Position numbers and translations under genes: made by a program. From positions 79,984,579-80,048,578 of the forward strand of contig OX393556.1 in the NCBI GenBank assembly GCA_947650365.1: a stretch of DNA of 64,000 bases, written 5' to 3'. Origin of the DNA: Chamaelirium japonicum (Eukaryota; Streptophyta; Magnoliopsida; Liliales; Melanthiaceae). Position 1 is the first letter of the stretch. Each line of letters begins with the position of its first letter. The notes beneath the pieces were generated by a model. It did not search any database. It was not told the origin of the DNA and saw only the letters and a list, made by a program, of their open reading frames with translations. This document shows positions 31,079 through 64,000 of the stretch, piece by piece.

Positions 31079-31081
31079 TGA

Positions 31082-36137: not shown

Positions 36138-39117
36138 TTAATTCATTCGTACGATCCATTCTAATTCATTCGTACGATCCATTCTAATTCATTCGTACGA
36201 TCCATTCTAATTCATTCATACAATCCATTCTAATTCATTTGCACGAATATATCCATTCTAATTCATTCGTACGATCCATTCTGATTCCTTCGTACGATCC
36301 ATTCTAATTCCTTCGTACAATCCATTCTAATTCATTCGTATGATGCATTCTAATTCATTCGCACAATCTATTCTTATTCATTCGCACGAATGTATCCATT
36401 CTAATTCCTTCGTATGATCCATTCTAATTCATTCGCACGAATGTATCCATTCTAATTCATTCGTACGATCCATTCTAATTCATTCGTACGATCCGTTCTA
36501 ATTCATTCGTACGATCTATTCTAATTCATTCGTATGATCCATTCTAATTCATTCGCACGAATGTATCCATTCTAATTCATTCATACAATCTATTCTAATT
36601 CATTCGTATGATCCATTCTAATTCATTCGTAAAATCCATTCTATTTCATTCGTACGATCCATTCTTACTCATTCGTACGATCCTTTACGATCCATTCTAA
36701 TTCATTCATACGATCCAATCTAATTCATTTGTGCGAATATATCCATTCTAATTCATTCGTACGATCCATTCTATTTCATTCGTACGATCCATTCTTACTC
36801 ATTCGTATGATCCATTCTAATTCATTTGTACGATCCATTTTAATTCATTCGTACGATCCATTTTAATTCATTCGCACGATCAATTCTAATTCATTCATAC
36901 AATCCATTCTAATTCATTCGCACGATCCATTCTAATTCATTCATACGATCCAATCTAATTCATTCATACGATCCATTCTAATTCATTCGTACGATCCATT
37001 TTAATTCATTCGCACGATCAATTCTAATTCATTCATACAATCCATTCTAATTCATTCGAACGATCAATTCTAATTCATTCATACAATCCATTCTAATTCA
37101 TTCACACGATCCATTCTAATTCATTCATATGATCCATTCTAATTCATTCATACGATCCATTCTAATTCATTCGTACGATCCATTCTAATTCATTCGCACA
37201 ATCTATCCTAATTCATTCGTACGATCCATTCTAATTCCTTCGCACGATCAATTCTAATTCATTCGTAAGATCCATTCTATTTCATTCGTACGATCCATTC
37301 TTACTCGATCAACTCTAATTCATTAAAACGATCCATTCTTACTCATTCGTACGATCCATTCTAATTCATTCGTACGATCTATTCTAACTCATTAATACGA
37401 TCCAATCTAATTCATTCATACGATCCATTCTAATTCCTTCGTACGATCCATTCTAATTCTTTCACACGATCCATTCTAATTCATTCGTACGATCCATTCT
37501 AATTCATTCGCACGATCCATTCTAATTCATTCGTACGATCCATTGTATTTCTATCGTACGATCCATTATTACGATCCATTCTAATTCATTCGCTGAATCC
37601 ATTCTAATTCATTAATACGATCCATTCTAATTCATTCGTACGACGCACGATCCATTCTAATTCATTCATACGATCCAATCTAATTCATTCATACGTATCC
37701 ATTCTAATTCATTCATACGATCCATTCTAATTCATTCATACGTATCCATTCTAATTCATTCGTACGATCCATTCTAATTCATTCATACGATCCATTCTAA
37801 TTCATTCGTACGATCCATTCTAATTCATTCGTACGATCCATTCTAATTCCTTCGTACGATCCATTCTAATTCATTCATACGATCCAATCTAATTCATTCA
37901 TACGATCCATTCTAATTCATTCGCACAATCTATTCTAATTCATTCGTACGATCCATTCTAATTTATTCACACAATCTATTCTAATTCATTCATAGGATCC
38001 ATTCTAATTCATTCATACGATCCATTCTAACGTACGAATGAATTAGAATGGATCGTACGAAGGAATTAGAATGGATCGTACGAATGAATTAGAATGGATA
38101 CATTCGTATAATCCATTCTAATTCATTCGTACGATCCATTCTAATTCATTCACACGAATGTATCCATTCTAATTCAATCGTACGATCCATTCTAATTCCT
38201 TTGTACGATCCATTCTAATTCCTTCGTACGATCCATTCTAATTCATTCGTACGTTAGAGTGGATCGTGTGAATGAATTAGAATGAATCGTATGAATGAAT
38301 TAGAATAGATTGTGCGAATGAATTAGAATGGATTGTACGAATGAATTAGAATGGTGCGAATGAATTAGAATGGATCGTGCGAATGAATTAGAATGGATCG
38401 TACGAATGAATTATAATGGATCATGTACAATCCATTCTATTTCATTCGTACGATCCATTCTTACTCATTAGCATGATCCATTCTAATTCATTCGTACAAT
38501 CCATTCTAATTCATTCTCACGATCCATTCTAATTCATTCGCACCATTCTAATTCATTCGCACAATCTATTCTAATTCATTCGCACGATCCATTCTAATTC
38601 GTTCATACGATCCATTCTAATTTATTCGCACGAATATATCCATTCTAATTCATTCGTACGATCCTTTCTATTTCATTCGTACGATCCATTCTTACTCATT
38701 CGTACGATCCATTCTAATTCATTTGCACAAATATATCCATTCTAATTCATTCGTATGATCCATTCTAATTCCTTCGTACGATCCATTCTATTTCATTCGC
38801 ACGAATGTATCCGTTCTAATTCATTCGTACGATTCATTCTAATTCATTCGTACGATCCATTCTAATTCATTCGTACGATCCATTCTAATTCATTCGTACG
38901 ATCCATTCTTATTCATTCGTACGATCCATTCTAATTCATTCATACGATCCATTCTAATTCATTTGCACGAATATATCCGTTCTAATTCATTCATACGATC
39001 CATTCTAATTCCTTCGTACGATCCATTCAAATTCATTAATACGATCCAATCTAATTCATTCGTACGATCAATTCTAATTCATTAGCATGATCCATTCTAA
39101 TTCATTCGTACGATCCA
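36138..39117. repeat. Satellite block inside the element (higher-order unit, copy 1, 'satB')
   Basis: About 2.98 kb of 23-bp satellite, mostly in the GATCCATTC orientation, with flips near 38033, 38107, 38256 and 38414. It matches 46990-49923 and 57772-60723 almost base for base, including rare variants such as the C-to-G change in CCATTCTGATTCC and the CATTCGCTGAATCC unit. It is therefore not a random fragment but one member of a 10.8-kb repeated unit. Its right edge shares CCA with the 118-bp array (39115-39117). Confidence 0.92.
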
Positions 39118-40052
39118 AACCTTGACCGGCTGATTTTAGCCGAACGGTCAAACTTGACCGTTCGGTCAAAATCAACCGATCGGTCAATTTTCTACTAGAT
39201 CTGGCCAAAAACTGAGGTTTTTTGCCGATCACCCAAACCTTGACCGGCTGATTTTAGCCGAACGGTCAAACTTGACCGTTCGGTCAAAATCAACCAATCG
39301 ATCAATTTTCTACTAGATCTGGCCAAAAACTGAGGTTTTTTGCCGATCACCCAAACCTTGACCGGCTGATTTTAGCCGAAACGGTCAAACTTGACCGTTC
39401 GGTCAAAATCAACCGATCGGTCAATTTTCTACTAGATCTGGCCAAAAACTGAGGTTTTTTGCCGATCACCCAAACCTTGACCGGCTGATTTTAGCCGAAC
39501 GGTCAAACTTGACCGTTCGGTCAAAATCAACCGATCGGTCAATTTTCTACTAGATAAGGCGAAAAACTAAGGTTTTTTGCCGATCACCCAAACCTTGACC
39601 GGCTGATTTTAGCCGAACGGTCAAACTTGACCGTTCGGTCAAAATCAACCGATCGGTCAATTTTCTACTAGATCAGGCGAAAAACTGAGGTTTTTTGCCG
39701 ATCACCCAAACCTTGACCGGCTGATTTTAGCCGAACGGTCAAACTTGACCGTTCGGTCAAAATCAACCGATCGGTCAATTTTCTACTAGATCTGTCAAAA
39801 AACCTTGTTTTTTGACCGATCACCTGATCCTTGACCGGTTGAAATTGACCGTTCGGTCAAATTTAACCGATCGGTCAAATTTGACCGATCGGTCAAAATC
39901 AACCGATCGGTCAAATTTTGACCGTTCACACAATCCTTGACCGGTCGAAACTGACCGTTTGGTCAAATTTGACCGTTCGGTCAATTTTGACCGTTCGGTC
40001 AAATTTGACCGTTTGATCAAAATTGAGCGATCGGTCAAATTTGACCGATCGG
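39115..40052. repeat. 118-bp tandem array, copy-1 block
   Basis: Regular units start at 39120, 39238, 39356, 39475, 39593 and 39711, followed by a degenerate run of short TTGACCG/CGGTCAA dyads to about 40052. The third unit is 119 bp because of one extra A, and the same extra A is in the matching block at 50162-50280. This supports descent of both from one ancestor. The left edge is fused to satellite. Confidence 0.92.
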
Positions 40053-40173
40053 CCTTTTTTATACTAACATTTCGACAAGCCTCTTTATGCCTTTTCTAGA
40101 CAGGGGGTTGCTGTTTTTTGCACCAAAATCCAAGCCAGCTAAAGTAGCCTCTAGCTAACTTGGAGGGGGTAAC
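40053..40173 (+). other. Element 3' unique region with polypurine tract
   Basis: The stretch from TTTTTTATACTAACATTTCG to the 3' LTR is unique to the element. GGAGGGGG at 40162-40169, four bases before the LTR's TG, is the polypurine tract that primes plus-strand synthesis. The same stretch precedes the third LTR, with its tract at 50981-50988. Confidence 0.85.
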
Positions 40174-40893
40174 TGTGGGTGCAAATTTTGGTAAGAAGGT
40201 TGCCAAACAGCGGGACCCACCGGCCCTGCCTGGTGGGCCACCGGAGACCACAGCGGGACCCACCGGCCCTGCCTGGTGGGCCACCGGAGACCACAGCGGG
40301 ACCCACCGGCCCTGCCTGGTGGGCCACCGGAGACCACAGCAGGACCTACCGACCCTGCCTGGTGGGCCACCGAAGACAACAGCGGGACCCACCGGCCCTG
40401 CCTGGTGGGCCCCCGAAGACGGTAGCGGGGCCGCCAGCTTTACCTGGAGGATCCCCAGATACTGTAGCAGAAACCGCCTTTTACCACCAGAGACTCCTAT
40501 AAATAGCAGAGCCTTCGAATGTAAATGGATCGAACTCTCAGTTCTAAAACCAGAGCTCTGGGATTTCCATCTTCCCATCTACCATCTCTCTTTGATCTTC
40601 TTCTCTCCTTCGAAGAGATCAGAGTGTTTCTAGTGATACTCGGCCTGTCGAGATCACTTCGACATAAGTGTTAGTGAATTCGGGTTGCTCCCTATAGCAC
40701 GGAGACGTAGGCTTCGGCTGAACTCCGAGATCACCTCTCGTGTCTACTCTCTAATTGCATATCTCTTTCTATTGACATATCAAAAGGCTTCAACAGCAAT
40801 CGACAGATCAAACAACGATCTTCGACATCAACTTCAACTTCAATTGACTGGTGCTGCGAAGTCTTCGGGTCGGCACGAAGATTTTCCCCCACA
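40174..40893 (+). repeat. 3' LTR (720 bp)
   Basis: TGTGGGTGCAAATT to CCCCCACA, with six 43-bp U3 units starting at 40210, 40253, 40296, 40339, 40382 and 40425, and a TATA box at 40498-40505. It differs from the 5' LTR at about 13 positions plus one 43-bp unit. It is followed at once by GATCA and satellite. Its promoter points rightwards into satellite. Confidence 0.95.
40498..40505 (+). promoter_or_regulatory. TATA box of the 3' LTR
   Basis: TATAAATA in the same context as in the 5' LTR. A transcript started here would run through U5 and out into the satellite after 40893. Confidence 0.75.
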
Positions 40894-40898
40894 GATCA
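40894..40898. repeat. Right target-site duplication (GATCA)
   Basis: Exact match to 24275-24279. The same GATCA and following satellite recur after the third LTR at 51714, because that copy arose by duplication and not by a separate insertion. Confidence 0.93.
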
Positions 40899-43800
40899 TA
40901 CGAATGAAATAGAATGGATTGTACGTATCAATTAGAATGGATCGTACGAATGAATTAGAATGGATCGTGTGAAAGAATTAGAACGGATCATACGAATGAA
41001 TTAGAATGGATCGTATGAATGAATTAGAATGGATCGTGTGAAATGAATTAGAATGGATTGTACGAATGAAATAGAATGGATCGTGCAAATGAATTAGAAT
41101 GGATTGTACGAATGAATTAGAATGGATCGTACGAATGAATTAGAATGGATCGTGTGAAAGAATTAGAATGGATTGTATGAATGAGTTAGAATGGATCGTA
41201 TGAATGAATTAGAGATCCATTCTAATTCATTCGTACGATCTATTCTAATTCATTCGTACAATCCATTCTAATTCTTTCACACGATCCATTCTAATTCATT
41301 CCTACGATCCATTCTAATTCATTCGTACAATCCATTCTAATTCATTCGCACGATCCATTCTAATTCATTCGTACAATCCATTCCATTCTAATTCATTCGT
41401 ACGATCCATTCTAATTCACTCATACGATCCATTCTAATTCATTCATACAATCCATTCTAATTCATTCGCACGATCCATTCTAATTCATTCATACGAGCCA
41501 TTCTAATTCATTCGTACAATCCATTCTTACTCCTTCGTATGATCCATTCTAATTCATTTGCACGAATATATCCATTCTAATTCATTTATACGATCCATTC
41601 AAATTCATTCGTACTATCCATTCCAATTCATTCACACGAATGTATCCATTCTAATTCATTCCTACGATCTATTCTAATTAATTCGCACGATCCATTCTAA
41701 TTCATTCGCACGATTCATTCTAATTCATTCGCACGAATGAATCCATTCTAATTCATTCGTATGATCCTTTCTAATTCATTCGCACAATCCATTCGAATTC
41801 ACTCATACGATCCATTCTAATTCATTCGTATGATCCATTCTAATTCATTTGTATCAATTCTATTTCATTCACACGATCCATTCGAATTCATTCGCACGAT
41901 CCATTATAATTCATTCATACGATCCATTCTAATTCATTCATACAATCCATTCTAATTCTTTCACACGATCCATTCTAATTCATTCGTAGGATCCATTCTA
42001 ATTCATTCGTACAATCCATTATAATTCATTCGCACGATCGATTCTAATTCATTCGTACAATCCATTCCATTATAATTCATTCGTACGATCCATTCAAATT
42101 CGTTCATACGATCTATTCTAATTCCTTCGTACGATCCATTCTAATTCATACGATCCATTCTATTTCATTAGTACGATCCATTCAAATTCATTAGCACGAT
42201 CCATTCTAATTCATTCGCACGATCCATTCTAATTCATTCGCACGATCCATTCTAATTTATTCGTCTGATCCATTCTAATTCATTCGCACGAATGTATCCA
42301 TTCTAATTGATACGTACAATCCATTCTATTTCATTCGTACGATCCATTCTTACTCATTCGTACGATCCATTCTAATTCATTCGCACGAATGTACCCATTC
42401 TAATTCATTCGTATGATCCATTCTAATTCATTCATACGATCCATTCTAATTCATTCATACAATGCATTCTAATTCTTTCACACGATCCATTCTAATTCAT
42501 TCGTACGATCCATTCTTATTCATTCGTACAATCTATTCTATTTCATTCGTACGATCCATTATTACTCATTCGTATGATCCATTCTAATTCATTCGCACGA
42601 ATGTATCCATTCTAATTCATTCGTACGATCCATTCTAATTCATTCGTACGATCCATTCTAATTCATTCATGCGATCCATTCCAATTCATTCATACAATCC
42701 ATTCTAATTCTTTCACATGATCCATTCTAATTCATTCATACTATCCATTCTAATTCATTCATACAATCCATTCTAATTCTTTCACATGATCCATTCTAAT
42801 TCATTCATACGATCCATTCTAATTCATTCGTACAATCCATTCTATTTCATTCGTACGATCCATTCTTACTCATTCGTACGATCCATTCTAATTCATTCGT
42901 ACGATCTATTCTAATTCATTTGCACGAATGTATCCATTCTAATTCATTAGTATGATCCATTCTAATTCATTCTAATTTATTCGTATGATCCATTCTAATT
43001 CATTCGTACGAATGTATCCATTCTAATTCCTTCATACGATCCATTCTAATTCCTTCGAACGAATAATTCTTACTCATTCGTATGATCCATTCTAATTCAT
43101 TCGCACGCGAATGTATCCATTCTAATTCATTCGTACGATCCATTCTAATTCATTCGTACAATCCATTCTATTTCATTCGTACGATCCATTCTTACTCATT
43201 CGTATGATCCATTCTAATTCATTCGCACGAATGTATCCATTCTAATTCATTCATACGATCCGTACGAATGAATTAGAATGGATCGTACGAATGAATTAGA
43301 ATGGATACATTCGTGCGAATGAATTAGAATGGATCGTACGATTGAGTAAGAATGATTCGTACGAAGGCATTCTAATTCATTCGCACGATCCATTCTAATT
43401 CATTCGCACGATCCATTCTAATTCATTCATACAATCCATTCTATTTAATTCGTACGATCCATTCTAATTCATTCGCACAATCCATTCTAATTCATTAATA
43501 CGATCCATTCTAATTCATTCGTACGATCCATTCTAATTCATTTGTACAATCCATTCGAATTCATTCGTACGATCCATTTCTTTCTCATTCGTATGATCCA
43601 TTCTAATTCATTCGCACAAATGTATCCATTCTAATTCATTCATATGATCGTTCTAATTCATTCGTACGATCCATTCTAATTCATTCATATGATCCAATCT
43701 AATTCATTCATACGATCCATTCTAATTCATTCGTACGATCCATTCTAATTCATTCATACGATCCATTCTAATTCATTCATACAATTCATTCTAATTCGTA

Positions 43801-46800
43801 ATAATGGATTGTATGAATGGATCGTATGAATGAATTAGAATGGATCGTGCAAATGAATTAGAATGGATCGTATGAATGAATTAGAATGGATCGTACTTAT
43901 GAATTAGAATGGATCGTACGAATGAATTAGAATGGATCGTATGAATGAATTAGAATGGATTGTATGAATGAGTAAGAATGAATTAGAGTGGATCGTACGA
44001 AGGAATTAGAATGAATCAGAATGGATTCATTCGAATGAATTAGAATGGATCGTGTGAAAGAATTAGAATAGATTATATGAATGAATTAGAATGGATCCTA
44101 TAAATGAATTAGAATGGATCGTACGAATGAATTAGAATGGATCATACGAATGAATTAGAATGGATCGTACGAAAGAGTAAGAATGATCGTGTGAATGAAT
44201 TAGAATGGATCGTACGAATGAATTAGAATGGATCGAATGAATTAGATTACGATCCATTCTAATTCATTCGTACGATCCATTCTAATTCATTCGTATGATC
44301 CATTCTAATTCATTCATTCGCACGAATGTATCCATTCTAATTCATTCGCACGAATGTATCCATTCTAATTCATTCGAACGATCCATTCTAATTCATTCGG
44401 ACAATCTATTCTAATTCATTCGCATGTTCCATTCTAATTCATTCGTATGATCCATTCTAATTCATTCGCACAATCTATTCTAATTCATTCGCACGAATGT
44501 ATCCAATCTAATTTATTCATACGATCTATTCTAATTCATTCATACGATCCATTCTAATTCATTCGTACAATCCATTCTATTTCATTCGTACGATCCATTC
44601 TTACTCATTTGTATGATCCATTCTAATTCATTCGCAAGAATGTATCCATTCTAATTCATTCGTACGATCCATTCTAATTAATTCGTACGATCCATTCTAA
44701 TTCATTCAAACAATCCATTCTAATTCATTCGTATGATCCATTCTAATTCATTCGTACAATCCATTCTATTTCATTCGTACGATCCACTCTTACTCATTCG
44801 TACGATCCATTCTAATTCATTCGCACGAATTTATCCATTCTAATTCATTCGTACGATCCATTCTAATTCATTCATACAATCCATTCTAATTCATTCGAAC
44901 GAATGTACGATCCATTCTTACTCATTCGTACGATCCATTGTAATTCATTCGCACAATCTATTCTATTTCATTCGTACGATTCATTCTAATTCATTCGTAC
45001 GATCCATTCTAATTCATTCGTACGAATGTATCCATTCTAATTCGTACGATTCATTCTAATTCATTCGCACGAATGTTCATACAATCCATTCTAATTCATT
45101 CGCACGAATGTACGATTCATTCTTACTTATTCGTACGATGCATTCTAATTCATTCGCACGAATGTATCCATTCCAATTCATTCGTATGATCCATTCTAAT
45201 TCATTCACACGAATGTATCCATTCTAATTCATTCATACGATCCATTCTAATTCATTCGCACAATCCATTCTAATTCATTCGTACGTTCAATTCTAATTCA
45301 TTCGTACGATCAATTCTAATTCATTCATACAATCCATTCTAATTCTTTCGCACGATCCTTTCTAATTCATTCGTAGGATCGATTCTAATTGATCGTACGA
45401 AGGAATTAGATAGGATCGGATACATTCGTGCGAATGAATTAGAATGGATCGTACGAAGGAATTAGAATGGATCGTACGAAGGAATTAGAATGGATCGTGC
45501 GAATGAATTAGAATGGATCGTATGAATGAAATAGAATGGATCGTGTGAAAGAATTAGAATGGATTGTATGAATGAATTAGAATGGATCGTATGAATGAAT
45601 TAGAATGGATACATTCGTGCGAATGAATTAGAATGGATCATGCGAGTGAAATAGAATGGATCGTACGAATGAATTAGAATGGATCGTACGAATGAATTAG
45701 AATAGATTGTGCGACGAATGTATGCATTCTAATTCATTTGTACGATCCATTCTAATTCATTCATACGATCCATTCTAATTCATTCGTACGATCCATTACG
45801 AATAAATTAGAAAGGATACATTCGTGCGAATGAATTAGAATGTATCATAAGAATGAGTAAGAATGCATCGTACGATCCATTCTAATTCATTCGCATGATC
45901 CATTCTAATTCATTCGCACGATCCATTCTAATTCATTCATACGATCTATTCTAATTCTTTCGCACGAATGTATCCATTCTAATTCATTCGCACGAATGTA
46001 TCCATTCTAATTCATTCATACGATCCATTCTAATTCCTTCGTAAGATCCGATCTAATTCATTCATACGATCCATTCTAATTAATTCGTACGATCCATTCT
46101 AATTCATTCGCACGATCCATTCTAATTCATAAGTACGATCCATTCTAATTCATTCATATGATCTATTCTGATTCATTCGTACGTTCCATTCTAATTCATT
46201 AGCACGATCCATGCTAATTCATTCGTACGATCTATTCTAATTCATTCGCACGATCCATTCTAATTCATTCGCACGAATGTATCCATTCTAATTCATTCGT
46301 ACGATCCATTCTAATTCATTCGAACGATCCATTCTAATTCATTCATACGATCCATTCTAATTCATTCGTACGATCCATTCTAACTCATTCGCACGATCCA
46401 TTCTAATTCATTCATACGATCCATTCTAATTCATTCGCACGAATGTATCCATTCGAATTCATTCGTACGATCCATTCTAATTCATTCGCACGAATGTATC
46501 CATTCTAATTCCTTCGTACGATCCATTCTATTTCATTCGTACGATCCATTCTATTTCATTCGTATGATCCCATACGATCCATTCTTACTCATTCGTACGA
46601 TCCATTCTAATTCATTCGCACGAACTATTCTAATTCATTCATACGATCCATTCTAATTCATTCATACGATCTATTCTAATTCATTCGTACGATCCATTCG
46701 AATTCATTCGCACGATCCAATCTAATTCATTCATACGATCTATTCTAATTCATTCGCACGAATGTATCCATTCTAATTCATTCGTACGATCCATTCTAAT

Positions 46801-49800
46801 TCATTCGGACAAATGTATCCATTCTAATTCCTTCGTACGATCCATTCTAATTCATTCAGACAATCCATTCTAATTCATTCGCACAATCTATTCTAATTCA
46901 TTTATACGATCCATTCTAATTCTTTCGCATGAATGGATCCATTCTAATTCATTCGTATGATCCATTCTAATTCATTTGTACGAACCATTCTAATTCATTC
47001 GTACGATCCATTCTAATTCATTCGTACGATCCATTCTAATTCATTCGTACGATCCATTCTAATTCATTCATACAATCCATTCTAATTCATTTGCACGAAT
47101 ATATCCATTCTAATTCATTCGTACGATCCATTCTGATTCCTTCGTACGATCCATTCTAATTCCTTCGTACAATCTATTCTTATTCATTCGCACGAATGTA
47201 TCCATTCTAATTCCTTCGTATGATCCATTCTAATTCATTCGCACGAATGTATCCATTCTAATTCATTCGTACGATCCATTCTAATTCATTCGTACGATCC
47301 GTTCTAATTCATTCGTACGATCTATTCTAATTCATTCGTAAGATCCATTCTAATTCATTCGCACGAATGTATCCATTCTAATTCATTCATACAATCTATT
47401 CTAATTCATTCGTATGATCCATTCTAATTCATTCGTAAAATCCATTCTATTTCATTCGTACGATCCATTCTTACTCATTCGTACGATCCTTTACGATCCA
47501 TTCTAATTCATTCATACGATCCAATCTACTTCATTTGCGCGAATATATCCATTCTAATTCATTCGTACGATCCATTCTATTTCATTCGTTCGATCCATTC
47601 TTACTCATTCGTATGATCCATTCTAATTCATTTGTACGATCCATTTTAATTCATTCGTACGATCCATTTTAATTCATTCGCACGATCAATTCTAATTCAT
47701 TCATACAATCCATTCTAATTCATTCGCACGATCCATTCTAATTCATTCAAACGATCCAATCTAATTCATTCATACGATCCATTCTAATTCATTCGTACGA
47801 TCCATTTTAATTCATTCGCACGATCAATTCTAATTCATTCATACAATCCATTCTAATTCATTCGCACGATCAATTCTAATTCATTCATACAATCCATTCT
47901 AATTCATTCGCACGATCCATTCTAATTCATTCATATGATCCATTCTAATTGATTCATACGATCCATTCTAATTCATTCGTACAATCCATTATAATTCATT
48001 CGCACAATCTATCCTAATTCATTCGTACGATCCATTCTAATTCCTTCGCACGATCCATTCTAATTCATTCGTAAGATCCATTCTATTTCATTCGTACGAT
48101 CCATTCTTACTCGATCAATTCTAATTCATTAAAACGATCCATTCTTACTCATTCGTACGATCCATTCTAATTCATTCGTACGATCTATTCTAATTCATTA
48201 ATACGATCCAATCTAATTCATTCATACGATCCATTCTAATTCCTTCGTACGATCCATTCTAATTCTTTCACACGATCCATTCTAATTCATTCGTATGATC
48301 CATTCTAATTCATTCGTACGATCCATTCTAATTCATTCGTACGATCCATTGTATTTCATTCGTACGATCCATTATTACGATCCATTCTAATTCATTCGCT
48401 GAATCCATTCTAATTCATTAATACGATCCATTCTAATTCATTCGTACGACGCACGATCCATTCTAATTCATTCATACGATCCAATCTAATTCATTCATAC
48501 GTATCCATTCTAATTCATTCATACGATCCATTCTAATTCATTCATACGTATCCATTCTAATTCATTCGTACGATCCATTCTAATTCATTCATACGATCCA
48601 TTCTAATTCATTCGTACGATCCATTCTAATTCATTCGTACGATCCATTCTAATTCCTTCGTACGATCCATTATAATTCATTCATACGATCCAATCTAATT
48701 CATTCATACGATCCATTCTAATTCATTCGCACAATCTATTCTAATTCATTCGTACGATCCATTCTAATTTATTCACACAATCTATTCTTATTCATTCATA
48801 GGATCCATTCTAATTCATTCATACGATCCATTCTAACGTACGAATGAATTAGAATGGATCGTACGAAGGAATTAGGATGGATCGTACGAATGAATTAGAA
48901 TGGATACATTCGTATAATCCATTCTAATTCATTCGTACGATCCATTCTAATTCATTCGCACGAATGTATCCATTCTAATTCAATCGTACGATCCATTCTA
49001 ATTCCTTTGTACGATCCATTCTAATTCCTTCGTACGATCCATTCTAATTCATTCGTACGTTAGAGTGGATCGTGTGAATGAATTAGAATGAATCGTATGA
49101 ATGAATTAGAATAGATTGTGCGAATGAATTAGAATGGATTGTACGAATGAATTAGAATGGTGCGAATGAATTAGAATGGATCGTGCGAAAGAATTAGAAT
49201 GGATCGTACGAATGAATTATAATGGATCATGTACAATCCATTCTATTTCATTCGTACGATCCATTCTTACTCATTAGCATGATCCATTCTAATTCATTCG
49301 TACAATCCATTCTAATTCATTCTCACGATCCATTCTAATTCATTCGCACCATTCTAATTCATTCGCACAATCTATTCTAATTCATTCGCACGATCCATTC
49401 TAATTCGTTCATACTATCCATTCTAATTCATTCGCACGAATATATCCATTCTAATTCATTCGTACGATCCTTTCTATTTCATTCGTACGATCCATTCTTA
49501 CTCATTCGTACGATCCATTCTAATTCATTTGCACGAATATATCCATTCTAATTCATTCGTATGATCCATTCTAATTCCTTCGTACGATCCATTCTATTTC
49601 ATTCGCACGAATGTATCCGTTCTAATTCATTCGTACGATTCATTCTAATTTATTCGTACGATCCATTCTAATTCATTCGTACTATCCATTCTAATTCATT
49701 CGTACGATCCATTCTTATTCATTCGTACGATCCATTCTAATTCATTCATACGATCCATTCTAATTCATTTGCACGAATATATCCGTTCTAATTCATTCGT

Positions 49801-49923
49801 ACGATCCATTCTAATTCCTTCGTACGATCCATTCAAATTCATTAATACGATCCAATCTAATTCATTCGTACGATCAATTCTAATTCATTAGCATGATCCA
49901 TTCTAATTCATTCGTACGATCCA
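40894..49923. repeat. 23-bp satellite between the 3' LTR and the second array block
   Basis: The same satellite as the left block, with orientation flips near 41214, 43261, 43368, 43800, 44248, 45390, 45716, 45796, 45872, 48836, 48910 and 49060. 40894-46989 is the distal part of copy 1 and 46990-49923 the first part of copy 2 of the 10.8-kb unit. No gene or foreign sequence is visible. Confidence 0.95.
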
Positions 49924-50872
49924 AACCTTGACCGGCTGATTTTAGCCGAACAGTCAAACTTGACCGTTCGGTCAAAATCAACCGATCGGTCAATTTTCTA
50001 CTGGATCTGGCCAAAAACTGAGGTTTTTTGCCGATCACCCAAACCTTGACCGGCTGATTTTAGCCGAACGGTCAAACTTGACCGTTCGGTCAAAATCAAC
50101 CAATCGGTCAATTTTCTACTAGATCTGGCCAAAAACTGAGGTTTTTTGCCGATCACCCAAACCTTGACCGGCTGATTTTAGCCGAAACGGTCAAACTTGA
50201 CCGTTCGGTCAAAATCAACCGATCGGTCAATTTTCTACTAGATCTGGCCAAAAACTGAGGTTTTTTGCCGATCACCCAAACCTTGACCGGCTGATTTTAG
50301 CCGAACGGTCAAACTTGACCGTTCGGTCAAAATCAACCGATCGGTCAATTTTCTACTAGATCAGGCGAAAAACTGAGGTTTTTTGCCGATCACCCAAACC
50401 TTGACCGGCTGATTTTAGCCGAACGGTCAAACTTGACCGTTCGGTCAAAATCAACCGATCGGTCAATTTTCTACTAGATCAGGCGAAAAACTGAGGTTTT
50501 TTGCCGATCACCCAAACCTTGACCGGCTGATTTTAGCCGAACGGTCAAACTTGACCGTTCGGTCAAAATCAACCGATCGGTCAATTTTCTACTAGATCTG
50601 TCAAAAAACCTTGTTTTTTGACCGATCACCTGATCTTTGACCGGTTGAAATTGACCGTTCGGTCAAATTTAACCGATCGGTCAAATTTGACCGATCGGTC
50701 AAAATTGACCGTTCGGTCAAAATTGACCGTTCGGTCAAAATCAACCGATCGGTCAATTTTCCACTGGATCGGTCAAAAAAAGCATGTTTTTTGACCGATC
50801 ACACAATCCTTGACCGGTCGAAACTGACCGTTCGGTCAAAATTGACCGATCGGTCAAATTTGACCGATCGGC
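49921..50872. repeat. 118-bp tandem array, copy-2 block
   Basis: Regular units start at 49926, 50044, 50162, 50281, 50399 and 50517, then diverged dyad-rich sequence. Its tail keeps the CACTGGATCGGTC and AGCATGTTTTTT pieces also seen at the end of the first block (36110-36137) but missing from the copy-1 block. The left junction with satellite is identical to that at 39115. Confidence 0.92.
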
Positions 50873-50992
50873 CTTTTTTATACTAACATTTCGACAAGCC
50901 TCTTTATGCCTTTTCTAGACAGGGGGTTGCTGTTTTTTGCACCAAAATCCAATCCAGCTAAAGTAGCCTCTAGCTAACTTGGAGGGGGTAAC

Positions 50993-51713
50993 TGTGGGTG
51001 CAAATTTTGGTAAGAAGGTTGCCAAACAGCGGGACCCACCGGCCCTGCCTGGTGGGCCACCGGAGACCACAGCGGGACCCACCGGCCCTGCCTGGTGGGC
51101 CACCGGAGACCACAGCGGGACCCACCGGCCCTGCCTGGTGGGCCACCGGAGACCACAGCAGGACCTACCGACCCTGCCTGGTGGGCCACCGAAGACAACA
51201 GCGGGACCCACCGGCCCTGCCTGGTGGGCCCCCGAAGACGGTAGCGGGGCCCGCCAGCTTTACCTGGAGGATCCCTAGATACTGCAGTAGAAACCGCCTT
51301 TTACCACCAGAGACTCCTATAAATAGCAGAGCCTTCGAATGTAAATGGATCGAACTCTCAGTTCTAAAACCAGAGCTCTGGGATTTCCAACTTCCCATCT
51401 ACCATCTCTCTTTGATCTTCATCTCTCCTTCGAAGAGATCAGAGTGTTTCTAGTGATACTCGGCCTGTCGAGATCACTTCGACATAAGTGTTAGTGAATT
51501 CGGGTTGCTCCCTATAGCACGGAGACGTAGGTTTCGGCTGAACTCCGAGATCACCTCTCATGTCTACTCTCTAATTGCATATCTCTTTCTATTGACATAT
51601 CAAAAGGCTTCAACAGTAATCGACAGATCAAATAACGATCTTCGACGTCAACTTCAACTTCAATTGACTGGTGCTGCGAAGTCTTCGGGTCGGCACGAAG
51701 ATTTTCCCCCACA
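50993..51713 (+). repeat. Third LTR copy (721 bp), part of a duplicated element 3' end
   Basis: It has TG...CA ends, six 43-bp units (51029, 51072, 51115, 51158, 51201, 51244) and a TATA box at 51318-51325. It is preceded by the polypurine tract and 118-bp array, and followed by GATCA and the same satellite as the 3' LTR. It is therefore a copy of the 3' LTR made by segmental duplication, not a solo LTR from a new insertion. It differs from the 3' LTR at about 11 positions. Confidence 0.93.
51318..51325 (+). promoter_or_regulatory. TATA box of the third LTR
   Basis: TATAAATA, conserved, facing rightwards into the satellite after 51713. Confidence 0.72.
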
Positions 51714-54700
51714 GATCATACGAATGAAATAGAATGGATTGTACGTATCAATTAGAATGGATCGTACGAATGACTTAGAATGGATCGTGTGAAAGAATTA
51801 GAACGGATCATACGAATGAATTAGAATGGATCGTATGAATGAATTAGAATGGATCGTGTGAAATGAATTAGAATGGATTGTACGAATGAAATAGAATGGA
51901 TCGTGCAAATGAATTAGAATGGATTGTACGAATGAATTAGAATGGATCGTACGAATGAATTAGAATGGATCGTGTGAAAGAATTAGAATGGATTGTATGA
52001 ATGAGTTAGAATGGATCGTATGAATGAATTAGAGATCCATTCTAATTCATTCGTACGATCTATTCTAATTCATTCGTACAATCCATTCTAATTCTTTCAC
52101 ACGATCCATTCTAATTCATTCCTACGATCCATTCTAATTCATTCGTACAATCCATTCTAATTCATTCGCACGATCCATTCTAATTCATTCGTACAATCCA
52201 TTCCATTCTAATTCATTCGTACGATCCATTCTAATTCACTCATACGATCCATTCTAATTAATTCATACAATCCATTCTAATTCATTCGCACGATCCATTC
52301 TAATTCATTCATACGAGCCATTCTAATTCATTCGTACAATCCATTCTTACTCCTTCGTATGATCCATTCTAATTCATTTGCACGAATATATCCATTCTAA
52401 TTCATTTATACGATCCATTCAAATTCATTCGTACTATCCATTCCAATTCATTCACACGAATGTATCCATTCTAATTCATTCCTACGATCTATTCTAATTA
52501 ATTCGCACGATCCATTCTAATTCATTCGCACGATTCATTCTTATTCATTCGCACGAATGAATCCATTCTAATTCATTCGTACGATCCTTTCTAATTCATT
52601 CGCACAATCCATTCGAATTCACTCATACGATCCATTCTAATTCATTCGTATGATCCATTCTAATTCATTTGTATCCATTCTATTTCATTCGCACGATCCA
52701 TTCGAATTCATTCGCATGATCCATTCTAATTCATTCATACGATCCATTCTAATTCATTCATACAATCCATTCTAATTCTTTCACACGATCCATTCTAATT
52801 CATTCGTAGGATCCATTCTAATTCATTCGTACAATCCATTATAATTCATTCACACGATCGATTCTAATTCATTCGTACAATCCATTCCATTATAATTCAT
52901 TCGTACGATCCATTCTAATTCGTTCATACGATCTATTCTAATTCCTTCGTACGATCCATTCTAATTCATACGATCCATTCTATTTCATTAGTACGATCCA
53001 TTCTAATTCATTCGCACGATCCATTCTAATTCATTCGCACGATCCATTCTAATTCATTCGCATGATCCATTCTAATTTATTCGTACGATCCATTCTAATT
53101 CATTCGCACGAATGTATCCATTCTAATTGATACGTACAATCCATTCAATTTCATTCGTACGATCCATTCTTACTCATTTGTACGATCCATTCTAATTCAT
53201 TCGCACGAATGTACCCATTCTAATTCATTCGTACGATCCATTCTAATTCATTCATACGATCCATTCTAATTCATTCATACAATGCATTCTAATTCTTTCA
53301 CACGATCCATTCTAATTCATTCGTACGATCCATTCTTATTCATTCGTACAATCTATTCTATTTCATTCGTACGATCCATTATTACTCATTCGTATGATCC
53401 ATTCTAATTCATTCGCACGAATGAATCCATTCTAATTCATTCGTACGATCCATTCTAATTCATTCGTACGATCCATTCTAATTCATCCATGCGATCCATT
53501 CCAATTCATTCATACAATCCATTCTAATTCTTTCACACGATCCATTCTAATTCATTCATACTATCCATTCTAATTCATTCATACAATCCATTCTAATTCT
53601 TTCACATGATCCATTCTAATTCATTCGTACGATCCATTCTAATTCAATCGTACAATCCATTCTATTTCATTCGTACGATCCATTCTTACTCATTCGTACG
53701 ATCCATTCTAATTCATTCGTACGATCTATTCTAATTCATTTGCACGAATGTATCCATTCTAATTCATTAGTATGATCCATTCTAATTCATTCTAATTCAT
53801 TCGTATGATCCATTCTAATTCATTCGTACGAATGTATCCATTCTAATTCCTTCATACGATCCATTCTAATTCCTTCGAACGAATCATTCTTACTCATTCG
53901 TACGATCCAATCTAATTCATTCGCACGCGAATGTATCCATTCTAATTCATTCGTACGATCCATTCTAATTCATTTGTACAATCCATTCTATTTCATTCGT
54001 ACGATCCATTCTTACTCATTCGTATGATCCATTCTAATTCATTCGCACGAATGTATCCATTCTAATTCATTCATATGATCCGTACGAATGAATTAGAATG
54101 GATCGTACGAATGAATTAGAATGGATACATTCGTGCGAATGAATTAGAATGGATCGTACGAATGAGTAAGAATGATTCGTACGAAGGCATTCTAATTCAT
54201 TCGCATGATCCATTCTAATCCATTCGCACGATCCATTCTAATTCATTCATACAATCCATTCTATTTAATTCGTACGATCCATTCTAATTCATTCGCACAA
54301 TCCATTCTAATTCATTAATACGATCCATTCTAATTCATTCGTATGATCCATTCTAATTCATTCGTACGATCCATTCTAATTCATTCGTACAATCCATTCT
54401 AATTCATTCGTACAATCCATTCGAATTCATTCGTACGATCCATTTCTTTCTCATTCGTATGATCCATTCTAATTCATTCGCACAAATGTATCCATTCTAA
54501 TTCATTCATATGATCGTTCTAATTCATTCATATGATCGTTCTAATTCATTCATATGATCGTATGAATGAATTAGAATGGATCGTGCAAATGAATTAGAAT
54601 GGATCGTATGAATGAATTAGAATGGATCGTACTTATGAATTAGAATGGATCGTACGAATGAATTAGAATGGATCGTATGAATGAATTAGAATGGATTGTA

Positions 54701-57700
54701 TGAATGAGTAAGAATGAATTAGAATGGATCGTACGAAGGAATTAGAATGAATCAGAATGGATTCATTCGAATAAATTAGAATGGATCGTGTGAAAGAATT
54801 AGAATGGATTATATGAATGAATTAGAATGGATCGTATGAATGAATTAGAATGGATCGTACGAATGAATTAGAATGGATCATACGAATGAATTAGAATGGA
54901 TCGTACGAAAGAGTAAGAATGATCGTGCGAATGAATTAGAATGGATCGTACGAATGAATTAGAATGGATCGAATGAATTAGATTATGATCCATTCTAATT
55001 CATTCGTACGATCCATCCTAATTCATTCGTATGATCCATTCTAATTCATTCATTCGCACGAATGTATCCATTCTAATTCATTCGCACGAATGTATCCATT
55101 CTAATTCATTCGAACGATCCATTCTAATTCATTCGGACAATCTATTCTAATTCATTCGTATGTTCCATTCTAATTCATTCATATGATCCATTCTAATTCA
55201 TTCGCATAATCGATTCTAATTCATTCGCACGAATGTATCCAATCTAATTTATTCATATGATCTATTCAAATTCATTCATACGATCCATTCTAATTCATTC
55301 GTACAATCCATTCTATTTCATTCGTACGATCCATTCTTACTCATTTGTATGATCCATTCTAATTCATTCGCAAGAATGTATCCATTCTAATTCATTCGTA
55401 CGATCCATTCTAATTAATTCGTACGATCCATTCTAATTCATTCATACAATCCATTCTAATTCATTCGTATGATCCATTCTAATTCATTCGTACAATCCAT
55501 TCTATTTCATTCGTACGATCCACTCTTACTCATTCGTACGATCCATTCTAATTCATTCGCACGAATTTATCCATTCTAATTCATTCGTACGATCCATTCT
55601 AATTCATTCATACAATCCATTCTAATTCATTCGCACGAATGTACGATCCATTCTTACTCATTCGTACGATCCATTGTAATTCATTCGCACAATCTATTCT
55701 ATTTCATTCGTACGATTCATTCTAATTCATTCGTACGATCCATTCTAATTCATTCGTACGAATGTATCCATTCTAATTCGTACGATTCATTCTAATTCAT
55801 TCGCACGAATGTTCATACAATCCATTCTAATTCATTCGCACGAATGTACGATTCATTCTTACTTATTCGTACGATGCATTCTAATTCATTCGCACGAATG
55901 TATCCATTCCAATTCATTCGTATGATCCATTCTAATTCATTCGCACGAATGTATCCATTCTAATTCATTTATACGATCCATTCTAATTCATTCGCACAAT
56001 CCATTCTAATTCATTCGTACGTTCAATTCTAATTCATTCGTACGATCAATTCTAATTCATTCATACAATCCATTCTAATTCTTTCGCACGATCCTTTCTA
56101 ATTCATTCGTAGGATCGATTCTAATTGATCGTACGAAGGAATTAGATAGGATCGGATTCATTCGTGCGAATGAATTAGAATGGATTGTACGAAGGAATTA
56201 AAATGGATCGTACGAAGGAATTAGAATGGATCGTACGAAGGAATTAGAATGGATCGTGCGAATGAATTAGAATGGATCGTATGAATGAAATAGAATGGAT
56301 CGTGTGAAAGAATTAGAATGGATTGTATGAATGAATTAGAATGGATCGTATGAATGAATTAGAATGGATACATTCGTGCGAATGAATTAGAATGGATCGT
56401 GCGAGTGAAATAGAATGGATCGTACGAATGAATTAGAATGGACCGTACGAATGAATTAGAATAGATTGTGCGACGAATGTATGCATTCTAATTCATTTGT
56501 ACGATCCATTCTAATTCATTCATACGATCCATTCTAATTCATTCGTACGATCCATTACGAATAAATTAGAAAGGATACATTCGTGCGAATGAATTAGAAT
56601 GTATCATACGAATGAGTAAGAATGCATCGTACGATCCATTCTAATTCATTCGCATGATCCATTCTAATTCATTCGCACGATCCATTCTAATTCATTCATA
56701 CGATCTATTCTAATTCTTTCGCACGAATGTATCCATTCTAATTCATTCGCACGAATGTATCCATTCTAATTCATTCGTACGATCCATTCTAATTCTTTCG
56801 TAAGATCCGATCTAATTCATTCATACGATCCATTCTAATTAATTCGTACGATCCATTCTAATTCATTCGCACGATCCATTCTAATTCATAAGTACGATCC
56901 ATTCTAATTCATTCATACGATCTATTCTGATTCATTCGTACGTTCCATTCTAATTCATTAGCACGATCCATGCTAATTCATTCGTACGATCCATTCTAAT
57001 TCATTCGCACGATCCATTCTAATTCATTCGCACGAATGTATCCATTCTAATTCATTCGTACGATCCATTCTAATTCATTCGAACGATCCATTCTAATTCA
57101 TTCATACGATCCATTCTAATTCATTCGTACGATCCATTCTAACTCATTCGCACGATCCATTCTAATTCATTCATACGATCCATTCTAATTCATTCGCACG
57201 AATGTATCCATTCTAATTCATTCGTACGATCCATTCTAATTCATTCGCACGAATGTATCCATTCTAATTCCTTCGTACGATCCATTCTATTTCATTCGTA
57301 CGATCCATTCTATTTCATTCGTATGATCCCATACGATCCATTCTTACTCATTCGTACGATCCATTCTAATTCATTCGCACGATCTATTCTAATTCATTCA
57401 TACGATCCATTCTAATTCATTCATACGATCTATTCTAATTCATTCGTACGATCCATTCGAATTCATTCGCACGATCCAATCTAATTCATTCATACGATCT
57501 ATTCTAATTCATTCGCACGAATGTATCCATTCTAATTCATTCGTACGATCCATTCTAATTCATTCGGACAAATGTATCCATTCTAATTCCTTCGTACGAT
57601 CCATTCTAATTCATTCAGACAATCCATTCTAATTCATTCGCACAATCTATTCTAATTCATTTATACGATCCATTCTAATTCTTTCGCATGAATGGATCCA

Positions 57701-60700
57701 TTCTAATTCATTCGTATGATCCATTCTAATTCATTTGTACGAACCATTCTAATTCATTCGTACGATCCATTCTAATTCATTCGTACGATCTATTCTAATT
57801 CATTCGTACGATCCATTCTAATTCATTCGTACGATCCATTCTAATTCATTCATACAATCCATTCTAATTCATTGGCACGAATATATCCATTCTAATTCAT
57901 TCGTACGATCCATTCTGATTCCTTCGTACGATCCATTCTAATTCCTTCGTACAATCCATTCTAATTCATTCGTACGATGCATTCTAATTCATTCGCACAA
58001 TCTATTCTTATTCATTCGCACGAATGTATCCATTCTAATTCCTTCGTATGATCCATTCTAATTCATTCGCACGAATGTATCCATTCTAATTCATTCGTAC
58101 GATCCATTATAATTCATTCGTACGATCCGTTCTAATTCATTCGTACGATCTATTCTAATTCATTCGTACGATCCATTCTAATTCATTCGCACGAATGTAT
58201 CCATTCTAATTCATTCATACAATCTATTTTTATTCATTCGTATGATCCATTCTAATTCATTCGTAAAATCCATTCTATTTCATTCGTACGATCCATTCTT
58301 ACTCATTCGTACGATCCTTTACGATCCATTCTAATTCATTCATACGATCCAATCTAATTCATTTGCACGAATATATCCATTCTAATTCATTCGTACGATC
58401 CATTCTATTTCATTCGTACGACCCATTCTTACTCATTCGTATGATCCATTCTAATTCATTTGTACGATCCATTTTAATTCATTCGTACGATCCATTTTAA
58501 TTCATTCGCACGATCAATTCTAATTCATTCATACAATCCATTCTAATTCATTCGCACGATCCATTCTAATTCATTCATACGATCCAATCTAATTCATTCA
58601 TACGATCCATTCTAATTCATTCGTACGATCCATTTTAATTCATTCGCACGATCAATTCTAATTCATTCATACAATCCATTCTAATTCATTCGCACGATCA
58701 ATTCTAATTCATTCATACAATCCATTCTAATTCATTCACACGATCCATTCTAATTCATTCATATGATCCATTCTAATTCATTCATACGATCCATTCTAAT
58801 TCATTCGTACGATCCATTCTAATTCATTCGCACAATCTATCCTAATTCATTCGTAAGATCCATTCTAATTCCTTCGCACGATCCATTCTAATTCATTCGT
58901 AAGATCCATTCTATTTCATTCGTACGATCCATTCTTACTCGATCAATTCTAATTCATTAAAATGATCCATTCTTACTCATTCGTACGATCCATTCTAATT
59001 CATTCGTACGATCTATTCTAATTCATTAATACGATCCAATCTAATTCATTCATACGATCCATTCTAATTCCTTCGTACGATCCATTCTAATTCTTTCACA
59101 CGATCCATTCTAATTCATTCGTACGATCCATTCTAATTCATTCGCACGATCCATTCTAATTCATTCGTACGATCCATTGTATTTCATTCGTACGATCCAT
59201 TATTACGATCCATTCAAATTCATTCGCTGAATCTATTCTAATTCATTAATACGATCCATTCTAATTCATTCGTACGACGCACGATCCATTCTAATTCATT
59301 CATACGATCCAATCTAATTCATTCATACGTATCCATTCTAATTCATTCATACGATCCATTCTAATTCATTCATACGTATCTATTCTAATTCATTCGTACG
59401 ATCCATTCTAATTCATTCATACGATCCATTCTAATTCATTCGTACGATCCATTCTAATTCATTCGTACGATCCATTCTAATTCCTTCGTACGATCCATTC
59501 TAATTCATTCATACGATCCAATCTAATTCATTCATACGATCCATTCTAATTCATTCGCACAATCTATTCTAATTCATTCGTACGATCCATTCTAATTTAT
59601 TCACACAATCTATTCTAATTCATTCATAGGATCCATTCTAATTCATTCATACGATCCATTCTAACGTACGAATGAATTAGAATGGATCGTACGAAGGAAT
59701 TAGAATGGATCGTACGAATGAATTAGAATGGATACATTCGTATAATCCATTCTAATTCATTCGTACGATCCATTCTAATTCATTCGCACGAATGTATCCA
59801 TTCTAATTCAATCGTACGATCCATTCTAATTCCTTTGTACGATCCATTCTAATTCCTTCGTACGATCCATTCTAATTCATTCGTACGTTAGAGTGGATCG
59901 TGTGAATGAATTAGAATGAATCGTATGAATGAATTAGAATAGATTGTGCGAATGAATTAGAATGGATTGTACGAATGAATTAGAATGGTGCGAATGAATT
60001 AGAATGGATCGTGCGAATGAATTAGAATGGATCGTACGAATGAATTATAATGGATCATGTACAATGCATTCTATTTCATTCGTACGATCCATTCTTACTC
60101 ATTAGCATGATCCATTCTAATTCATTCGTACAATCCATTCTAATTCATTCTCACGATCCATTCTAATTCATTCGCACCATTCTAATTCATTCGCACAATC
60201 TATTCTAATTCATTCGCACGATCCATTCTAATTCGTTCATACGATCCATTCTAATTCATTCGCACGAATATATCCATTCTAATTCATTCGTACGATCCTT
60301 TCTATTTCATTCGTACGATCCATTCTTACTCATTCGTACGATCCATTCTAATTCATTTGCATGAATATATCCATTCTAATTCATTCGTATGATCCATTCT
60401 AATTCCTTCGTATGATTCATTCTATTTCATTCGTACGATTCATTCTAATTCATTCGTACGACCCATTCTAATTCATTCGTACGATCCATTCCAATTCATT
60501 CGTATGATCCATTCTTATTCATTCGTACGATCCATTCTAATTCATTCATACGATCCATTCTAATTCATTTGCACGAATATATCCGTTCTAATTCATTCGT
60601 ACGATCCATTCTAATTCCTTCGTACGATCCATTCATATTCATTAATACGATCCAATCTAATTCATTCGTACGATCAATTCTAATTCATTAGCATGATCCA

Positions 60701-63700
60701 TTCTAATTCATTCGTACGATCCATTCTATTTCATTCGTACGATTCATTATTACGATCCATTCTAATTCATTCGTACGATCCATTCTAACTCATTCGCACA
60801 ATCTATTCTAATTCATTCGTACGATCCATTCTAATTCATTAGCACGATCCATTCTAATTCATTCATATAATCCATTCTAATTCATTCGCACAATCTATTC
60901 TAATTCATTAGCACGATCCATTCTAATTCATTAGCACGATCCATGCTAATTCATTCGCACGAACCATTCTAATTCATTCATGCGATCCATTCTAATTCAT
61001 TCATACGATCTATTCTAATTCTTTCGCACGAATGTATCCATTCTAATTCATTCATACGATCCAATCTAATTCATTCGTACGATCCATTCTAATTCATTCG
61101 TACGATCCATTCTAATTCCTTCATACGATCCATTCTAATTCATTCGCATGAATGGATCGTGCGAATGAGTAAGAATAAATCATATGAATCTAATAGAATG
61201 TACGATATATTCTAATTCATTCGTACGATCCATTCTAATTCATTCGTATGATTCATTCTAATTCATTCGCACGAATGTATCCATTATAATTCATTCGTAC
61301 AATCCATTCTAATTCATTCGTACAATCCATTCTATTTCATTCGTACGATCCATTCTTACTCATTCGTATGATCCATTCTAATTCATTCGTACGATCCATT
61401 CTAATTCCTTCGTACGAATGTATCCACTCTAATTCATTAGCACGATCCATTCTAATTCATTCGCACGATCCATTCTAATTCCTTCGTACGATCCATTCTA
61501 ATTCCTTCGTACGATCCATTCTAATTCATTCATACGATCCATTCTAATTCATTCGTACGATCCATTATAATTCATTCGTACGATCCATTCTAATTCATTC
61601 GTATAATCCACTATAATTCATTCGCACGATCCATTCGAATTCATTCATACAATCCACTCTAATTCATTCGTACGATCCACTCTAATTCATTCGCACGATC
61701 CATTCTAATTCATTTATACGATCCATTCTATTTCATTCGTACGATCCATTCTAATTCATTCGTACAATCCACTCTAATTCATTCGTACAATCCACTCTAA
61801 TTCATTCGTAGGATCCATTCTAATTCCTTCGTACGATCCATTCTAATTCCTTCGTACGATCCATTCTAATTGATACGTAAATCCATTCTATTTCATTCGA
61901 ACGATCCATTCTTACTCATTCTTACGATCCATTCTAATTCTTTCGCACGAATGTATCCACTCTAATTCATTTGTACGATCCATTCTAATTCATTCTTATG
62001 ATCCATTCTAATTCATTCGCACGAATGTATCCATTCTAATTCATTCATATGATCCATTCTAATTCATTCGCACTATCCATTCGAATTCACTCATACGATC
62101 TATTCATTTTCATTCTTACGATCCATTCTAATTCATTCCCACGATCCATTCTAATTCATTCATATGATCCATTCTAATTCATTCGTACGATCCATTCTAA
62201 TTCATTCGCACGATCCATTCTAATTCATTCATACGATCCATTCTAATTCATTCCTATAATCTATTCTAATTCTTCACACGAATGTATCCATTCTAATTCA
62301 TTCGTACGATCCAATCTAATTCATTCGCACGATCGATTCTAATTCATTCATACAATCCATTCTAATTCATTCGTACGATCCATTCTAATTCATTCGCACA
62401 ATCTATTCTAATTCATTCATACGATCCATTCTAATTCATTCGTACGATCCATTCTAATTCATTAATACGATCCAATCTAATTCATTCATACGATCCATTC
62501 TAATTCCTTCGTACGATCCATTCTAATTCATACAATCCATTCTATTTCTTTCATACGATCCATTCTAATTCATTCGTACGATCCATTCTAATTCATTCGC
62601 ATGAATGTATCCATTATAATTCATTCGTACGATCCATTGTAATTCATTCGTACGATCCATTCTAATTCATTCATACGATCCATTCTAATTCATTCGCACG
62701 AATGTATCCATTCTAATTCATTCGTACGATCCATTCTAATTCATTCGCACGATCCATTCTAATTCATTCATACATTCCATTCTAATTCTTTCACACAATC
62801 CATTCTAATTCATTTGTACGATGCATTCTATTTCATTCGTACGATCCATTCTAATTCATTCGTACGATCCATTCTAATTCATTCGCACGATCCATTCTAA
62901 TTCATTCGTACGATCCATTCTAATTCATTCGTACGATCCAATCTAATTCATTCGTACGATCCATTCTAATTCATTCGTACGATCTATTCTAATTCATTCG
63001 CACGATCCATTCTAATTCATTCATACGATCCATTCTAATTCATTCATACGATCCATTCTAATTCATTCGTACGATCCATTCTAATTCATTCGCACGATCT
63101 ATTCTAATTCATTCGTACGATCCATTCTAATTCATTCATACGATCCATTCTAATTCCATCGTACGATCCATTCTAATTCCTTAGTACGATCCATTCTAAT
63201 TCATTCGTATGATCCCTTCTAATTCATTCGTACGATCCATTCTAATTCCTTCGTACAATCAATTCTAATTCATACGATCCATTCTATTTCATTCATACGA
63301 TCCATTCTAATTCATTCTCACGATCCAATCTAATTCATTCATAAGATCCATTTTAATTCATTCGCACAATCTATTCTAATTCATTCATACGATCCATTCT
63401 AATTCATTCGTACGATCCATTCAAATTCATTCGCACGATCCATTCTAATTCATTCGCATGAATGTATCCATTCTAATTCATTCGTATGTATCCATTCTAA
63501 TTCATTCGTACGATCCATTCTATTTCATTCATACGATCCATTCTTACTCATTCATACGATTCATTCTAATTCATAAGTACGATCCATTCTAATTCATTTG
63601 CACGATCCATTCTAATTCAGTCGTACGATCCATTCTAATTCAGTCGCACAATCTATTCTATTTCATTCGTACGATCCATTCTAATTCATTCGTACGATCC

Positions 63701-64000
63701 ATTCTAATTCATTCGTACGATCCATTCTAATTCATTCGCACGATCCATTCTAATTCATTCATACGATCCATTCTAAGTCATTCGTACGATCCATTCTAAT
63801 TCATTCGCACGATCCATTCTAATTCATAATTACAATCTATTCTAATTCATTCATACGATCCATTCTAATTCATTCGTACAATCCATTCTATTTTGTTCGT
63901 ATGATCCATTCTTACTCATTCGTACGATCCATTCTAATTCATTCGTACGATCCATTCTAATTCATTCGCACGAATGTATCCATCCTTTGCACGAATGGAT
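51714..64000. repeat. 23-bp satellite array, right block
   Basis: 51714-57771 repeats 40894-46989. 57772-60723 repeats the two other satB blocks, and beyond it the array goes on in ordinary satellite to the window end, mostly in the GATCCATTC orientation. From about 60724 to 64000 only two short flips are visible, near 61150-61200 and at the last bases. No gene is visible. Confidence 0.95.
57772..60723. repeat. 10.8-kb higher-order repeat, partial copy 3 (satB only)
   Basis: Matches 36138-39117 and 46990-49923, including the CATTCGCTGAATC unit and the GTTAGAGTGGATCGTGTG flip. At GATCCA (60719-60724), copies 1 and 2 switch to the 118-bp array, but this copy goes on as GATCCATTCTATTTC satellite. 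It most likely shows the sequence before the satellite/array junction formed. Confidence 0.85.

Follow-up and report, generated by a model that had tools for sequence, protein, structure and literature searches.

The window, by which we mean the whole 64-kb stretch of DNA analysed, holds an LTR retrotransposon set in 23-bp satellite DNA, and the end of this element recurs together with satellite in tandem. The satellite occupies four stretches (1-24279, 36139-39117, 40894-49923, and 51714-64000). The first ends in GATCA (24275-24279), the left copy of a 5-bp target-site duplication, which is followed on the plus strand, like all features below unless stated otherwise, by a 5′ LTR of 764 bp (24280-25043; TGTGGG...CCCACA), an internal region with interrupted reading frames (25044-35055) and an array of 118-bp units (35056-36139), here called the parental array. 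Farther right lie unit 1 (39118-49923; 10,806 bp), with a 3′ LTR of 720 bp at 40174-40893, and unit 2 (49924-60723; 10,800 bp), with a 3′ LTR of 721 bp at 50993-51713. Both are built in the same order from an array of six 118-bp units, a PPT, the LTR, GATCA and 9.0 kb of 23-bp satellite, and unit 2 passes with no visible break into the satellite beyond 60723. The parental array and the satellite block at 36139-39117 are the left part and the end, respectively, of a further copy, copy 0.

The retrotransposon and its insertion

The internal region encodes gag (Retrotrans_gag), RT, RNase H, RVT_3, and integrase in frames interrupted by stops, which were searched for domains as separate pieces. 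One stop-free frame carries RVT_1 (134-292), RT_RNaseH_2 (357-455), RVT_3 (562-672), Integrase_H2C2 (782-834), and rve (852-927). RVT_3, which we take to be the archaeal-type RNase H and a marker of Tat elements, thus adds a second RNase H-like domain, placed after RT-RNase H and before integrase, and the 118-bp array at 35056-36139 provides tandem repeats in the 3′ untranslated region, behind the coding sequence. TTTGGCGCCGTCTGTGGGA, starting one base beyond the 5′ LTR, is PBS-like and is presumed here to be the PBS, and a purine-rich stretch before TGTGGGT, GGAGGGGGTAAC, was recognised by eye as the PPT. The available text on Ogre elements gives the same domain list, RT-RH-RVT_3-INT, and names tandem repeats in the 3′ untranslated region as a feature of the Tat lineage (PMC7004042). 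By its predicted domains and repeats the element is classed as Ty3/gypsy of Tat type, and this copy looks decayed, because its frames are broken by stop codons. An 84-bp tandem repeat (2.9 copies, 31177-31422) lies immediately past the last pol frame. Two open frames on the opposite strand, measured from stop to stop, span 745 aa (32618-34855, minus) and 188 aa (31796-32362, minus); the longer matches PF04195 (Transposase_28, "putative gypsy type transposon"; E 1.9e-6).

An identical GATCA precedes the 5′ LTR and follows each 3′ LTR. The initial annotation had seen the same GATCA-plus-satellite flank behind both 3′ LTRs, which is correct, and this shared flank rules out the independent insertion of two elements. 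GATCA occurs at 65 of the 35,900 satellite positions counted, and random pairs of satellite 5-mers are identical in 1.5% of 200,000 draws. When the flanks are joined with GATCA counted once, the restored site scores 65.0, compared with a mean of 65.5 at 1,000 uncut places and of 50.2 for random cut pairs, 14% of which (2,000 pairs) reach 65.0; the score lends mild support to a single insertion. In our reading, a single insertion event gave rise to the element with its two 3′ LTRs. The element's 3′ end had been described as captured into the satellite repeat. It was not carried off from its element, since the parent (24280-36139), with GATCA in front, is attached directly on the left.

The tandem unit and its borders

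Self-BLAST of the window is dominated by a single long match, between 36136-49923 and 46942-60723, at 95.07% over 13,936 columns including 302 gap columns. A stricter self-comparison splits it into runs at 98-99%, among them 36297-39915 against 47103-50721 (98.76% across 3,619 columns) and 40006-43614 against 50825-54433 (98.37%). The pair stands far above the satellite background, since the other 59 among the 60 longest self-BLAST pairs listed reach only 78.6-84.7%; the copies are thus much more alike than other satellite stretches, as is expected of a higher-order repeat. The self-alignment that the initial annotation had proposed therefore bears out its claim that the 118-bp array, PPT and LTR occur twice in tandem with fixed lengths of satellite, and the duplication is confirmed as real.

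The borders of the repeated unit follow from its junctions. One satellite block is present in three copies, which end at 39117, 49923, and 60723. The first two switch into the 118-bp array (boundaries 39117/39118 and 49923/49924) through an identical junction, GATCCA/AACC, at 39112-39121 and 49918-49927, with the surrounding string TACGATCCAAACCTTGACC; scanning both strands of the window finds this motif at exactly these two places. The third stays in satellite register at 60723, where the sequence reads GATCCA/TTC. At the other edge, the parental array passes uninterrupted into the element. The left edge is thus native to the element, the right edge is native to the satellite, and the sequence between the copies is novel, so that the arrangement is a tandem duplication: direct adjacent copies share one novel junction sequence and their outer ends continue natively, the left one within copy 0, which is deleted further on. 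The natural unit is 118-bp array, PPT, LTR and about 9.0 kb of satellite, and about 83-84% of it is satellite. The initial annotation had instead drawn units at 36138-46989 and 46990-57771, in the order satellite, array, LTR, satellite. These coordinates are correct in themselves and wrong in phase, because they begin at a join that is present once. The proposed third, satellite-only part (57772-60723) is the tail of unit 2 and no third partial unit; it was made to stop at the point where only the other copies change.

That single join, GCATGTTTTAATTCATTCG, brings array and satellite together at 36138-36139 with a 1-bp overlap (T). Except for a 19-column gap and isolated changes, the parental array tracks its counterpart in unit 2 as far as GGTCAAAAAAAGCATGTTTT (36120-36139; 50771-50790). 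Past this point, the sequence at 36139 switches to satellite matching 57773 onward (36139-38804 against 57773-60438: 98.9%, ungapped, 2,666 bp), and about 6,980 bp are absent relative to unit 2 (50791-57772). The most plausible reading is that a parental copy of the unit lost about 6.98 kb here, which would account both for a match that exceeds one unit and for the apparent third satellite-only part.

The three 118-bp arrays differ in a manner that bears on the order of the copies. The parental array comprises eight units and a degenerate tail, in which it is truncated, and those of units 1 and 2 comprise six each. In both of the latter the spacing is 118, 118, 119, 118, and 118, as the third 118-bp unit of each contains an extra A; this base, reported initially as common to both arrays, is indeed so and occurs in 0 of the 8 parental units. 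The variants GATCAGGC and CTGTC of parental 118-bp units 6-7 and 8 recur in units 4-5 and 6 of the copies, and the fourth of unit 1 reads GATAAGGC. The first 118-bp unit of unit 1 is identical to the first parental one and has one difference from the third, and the distances between 118-bp units would also fit copies that start at the first parental unit and lack two middle ones. Further rearrangement separates the array tail of unit 1 from that of unit 2. Growth of the 118-bp array itself into a satellite was considered and rejected, as the window holds only 8, 6, and 6 units, with no expansion of a short array into a long one of the kind by which satellites arise from retrotransposon 3′ untranslated regions.

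Divergence and order of events

Between units 1 and 2, 159 of 10,649 aligned bases are mismatched (1.49%) and the alignment has 19 gap events; the overall divergence of the copies is about 1.0-1.5%. Compared in 1-kb segments, three are at 4.5-5.2%, one is at 2.9%, and the other ten are at 0.5-1.7%; the high values fall where homology ends, where there are indels, or in the rearranged array tail. A count at fixed offset gives 76 of 3,181 over 40434-43614 (a similar count gives 66 of 2,721), and gapped alignments are lower, at 1.6% with 2 gap columns over 40006-43614 and at 9 and 17 per 1,000 over 41138-43137. We take the excess at fixed offset for shifted register, and the figure is left out of the estimates. 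The three satellite blocks are roughly equidistant, differing at 25, 26, and 30 positions of a clean 2,405-bp stretch (1.0-1.25%); whole blocks are 1.7, 1.15, and 1.9% apart, which is higher because these figures include the start of the second block, where a few hundred bases are rearranged. Since the blocks are equally diverged, the satellite gives no order for the steps after insertion.

The 5′ LTR differs from the two 3′ LTRs at 11 of 720 and 15 of 721 positions, and the 3′ LTRs differ from each other at 10 of 720, with overlapping confidence limits. In a MAFFT alignment, both 3′ LTRs are set apart from the 5′ LTR by nine common substitutions and by one 43-bp repeat fewer (six copies at 24313-24569, five each at 40207-40420 and 51026-51239); pairwise alignments place the 43-bp gap differently and give one common substitution fewer. 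Private changes amount to three substitutions and a 1-bp deletion in unit 1 and seven substitutions in unit 2. The duplication postdates the insertion, because the flanks behind the 3′ LTRs are shared. A long delay between the two events cannot be shown from LTR counts this small, whose confidence limits overlap.

A history of one insertion, a tandem duplication by end joining, a third copy gained by exchange or conversion, and a separate deletion is in our judgement the probable one. A Tat-type element would have inserted once into a minus-strand stretch of the 23-bp satellite, with GATCA, as read from the sequence, as its 5-bp target duplication. A break would then have been repaired by end joining of satellite at GATCCA/TTC, now at 60723, to the AACC that starts a 118-bp unit. 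The product, array, PPT, LTR and 9 kb of satellite in tandem, is observed directly, and end joining is the presumed route. CCA is found at 60723, at both junctions and at the internal boundaries between 118-bp units, and is absent before the first one (CTAACC). A 3-bp CCA overlap may have been available for end joining if the left break fell at an internal boundary, and none if it fell at the first unit, a start with which the distances between 118-bp units are also compatible. A third copy could subsequently have arisen from these two by unequal exchange or gene conversion, with the same junction copied along; this step is proposed because the junction is present twice and the extra A occurs in units 1 and 2 and not in the parental array. 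The restriction of this A to units 1 and 2 suggests that exchange enlarged an earlier state with two copies. In a separate step, the first copy presumably lost about 6.98 kb, comprising the array tail, PPT, LTR, and the first part of the satellite, so that the parental array came to abut satellite at 36138. The duplication would then be a by-product of satellite turnover, and the sequence bears no sign of a cellular function.

Three other explanations were weighed. A single replication-based event, in which template switching produced the backward jumps along with the skip at 36138, is in keeping with the nearly equal divergence of the three satellite blocks (25, 26, and 30 in 2,405) and with the little or no overlap at both types of join. 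It would nevertheless need the identical backward junction twice, to the base, for which exchange copying an existing junction is simpler, and the extra A in both units but not in the parental array suggests a second, later step; we regard such an event as unlikely. An assembly artefact, such as an end-to-end fusion of two haplotypes, has to be considered for a repeat region judged from the sequence of the window itself. However, a false end-to-end join yields one novel junction and here the same junction occurs twice, the units differ at 159 of 10,649 aligned bases, and a further, different join is present at 36138, which makes an artefact very improbable. Finally, the idea that the element already held satellite within its 3′ region (array, satellite, array) on insertion takes up the fact that satellite does sit inside the element's array between GATCA at 24275 and GATCA at 40894, but it leaves unexplained why this block should repeat, at 98.9%, the stretch 57773-60438, which in the present sequence lies some 17 kb rightward of 40893 and keeps the register of the satellite after it; the idea hardly deserves credence.

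Related systems and the wider satellite

In the centromere satellites of Arabidopsis, parts of ATHILA retrotransposons have multiplied after insertion along with flanking satellite, and the present locus is similar in that retrotransposon parts have multiplied together with the satellite next to them. A close precedent is the 22.7-kb adjacent tandem segmental duplication in the centromeric repeats of maize CEN10, which likewise starts inside a retrotransposon; in the accessible part of its description, the same few bases (a 5-base match) stand at the outer ends and at the junction, and the duplication is attributed to alternative end joining (PMC4806543). As far as that text goes, the maize case differs in involving CR elements, a larger segment and the longer match, whereas here the element is of Tat type, the unit is 10.8 kb, the match is at most three bases, one end lies in a 23-bp satellite, and another copy, part of which is deleted, is present as well (PMC4806543). 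Sobo of Solanum bulbocastanum is quoted as likewise combining LTR-retrotransposon sequence with a satellite or genomic tandem repeat in a compound unit several kb long, and as spanning about 360 kb, in contrast to the two full copies and one deleted copy found here (PMC3648361, PMC8091179). Ogre, of the Tat lineage, gives rise to satellites from tandem repeats in its 3′ untranslated region and is also found inserted in expanded satellite arrays, according to the sections available (PMC7004042). The element described here resembles Ogre in its type and in the short tandem array downstream of its coding region; unlike in the Ogre-derived satellites covered there, the 118-bp array is unexpanded (8, 6, and 6 units) and merely carried along in a larger duplication (PMC7004042). 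The maize repeats CRM1TR and CRM4TR, derived from the LTR-UTR part of a centromeric retrotransposon, are in the portion consulted wholly element-derived, whereas the unit here is about 83-84% satellite (PMC3648361).

A literature search with access to few subscription journals found no paper naming a 23-bp satellite of such a kind, and a text search of the same coverage found none of six 18-21-letter fragments of the 23-bp, 118-bp and 43-bp units in print. The text seen of PMC10804481 and PMC11106260 likewise has no bearing on the event. The initial annotation did not recognise the unit. This holds for the combination of parts, which was not found described in the literature searched, and not for the type of event, which is ordinary and in print in the accessible texts (PMC4806543; Sobo in PMC3648361, PMC8091179). 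Its interest lies in being a clean case, with readable junctions, of a retrotransposon end entering satellite DNA via tandem segmental duplication, and in an apparently fractional higher-order repeat, matching over 13.8 kb at 10.8-kb spacing, that is better read as three copies, one of which carries a deletion. Of the original description as a 10.8-kb satellite higher-order repeat, the tandem copies stand, and of amplification the window itself shows nothing: it contains two full copies and one partly deleted copy, and nothing in its 64 kb points beyond a local tandem segmental duplication. If the unit were amplified, it would show a compound satellite like Sobo early in its formation. It seems very improbable that the 10.8-kb unit has seeded a compound satellite that is spreading, with many more copies elsewhere in the array and an LTR with its promoter every 10.8 kb, from which transcription could run into the 23-bp satellite.

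Strand changes are very frequent in the 23-bp satellite, with 69 switches in a Viterbi reading in which copies within the duplicated units are counted separately, and with 66 orientation runs by simple monomer matching. Some types of join recur; with duplicated copies included, there are, for example, six minus-to-plus joins at phases 8/20 and five plus-to-minus joins at 17/2. A satellite palindrome at 8709-9475, centred near 9092, is 92.0-93.6% self-complementary over 778 and 716 columns, and left of the element two inverted copies (19309-19801 and 23504-23997), 3.7 kb apart, agree at 96% over 494 columns. Older satellite duplications, at 92-93%, join 15809-16607 to 44034-44826 and (from 15830) to 54786-55562, and join 13140-13649 and 13723-14187 to 42296-42904 and 53116-53724. 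They exceed the general satellite background and tie the left array to the satellite within the duplicated unit.
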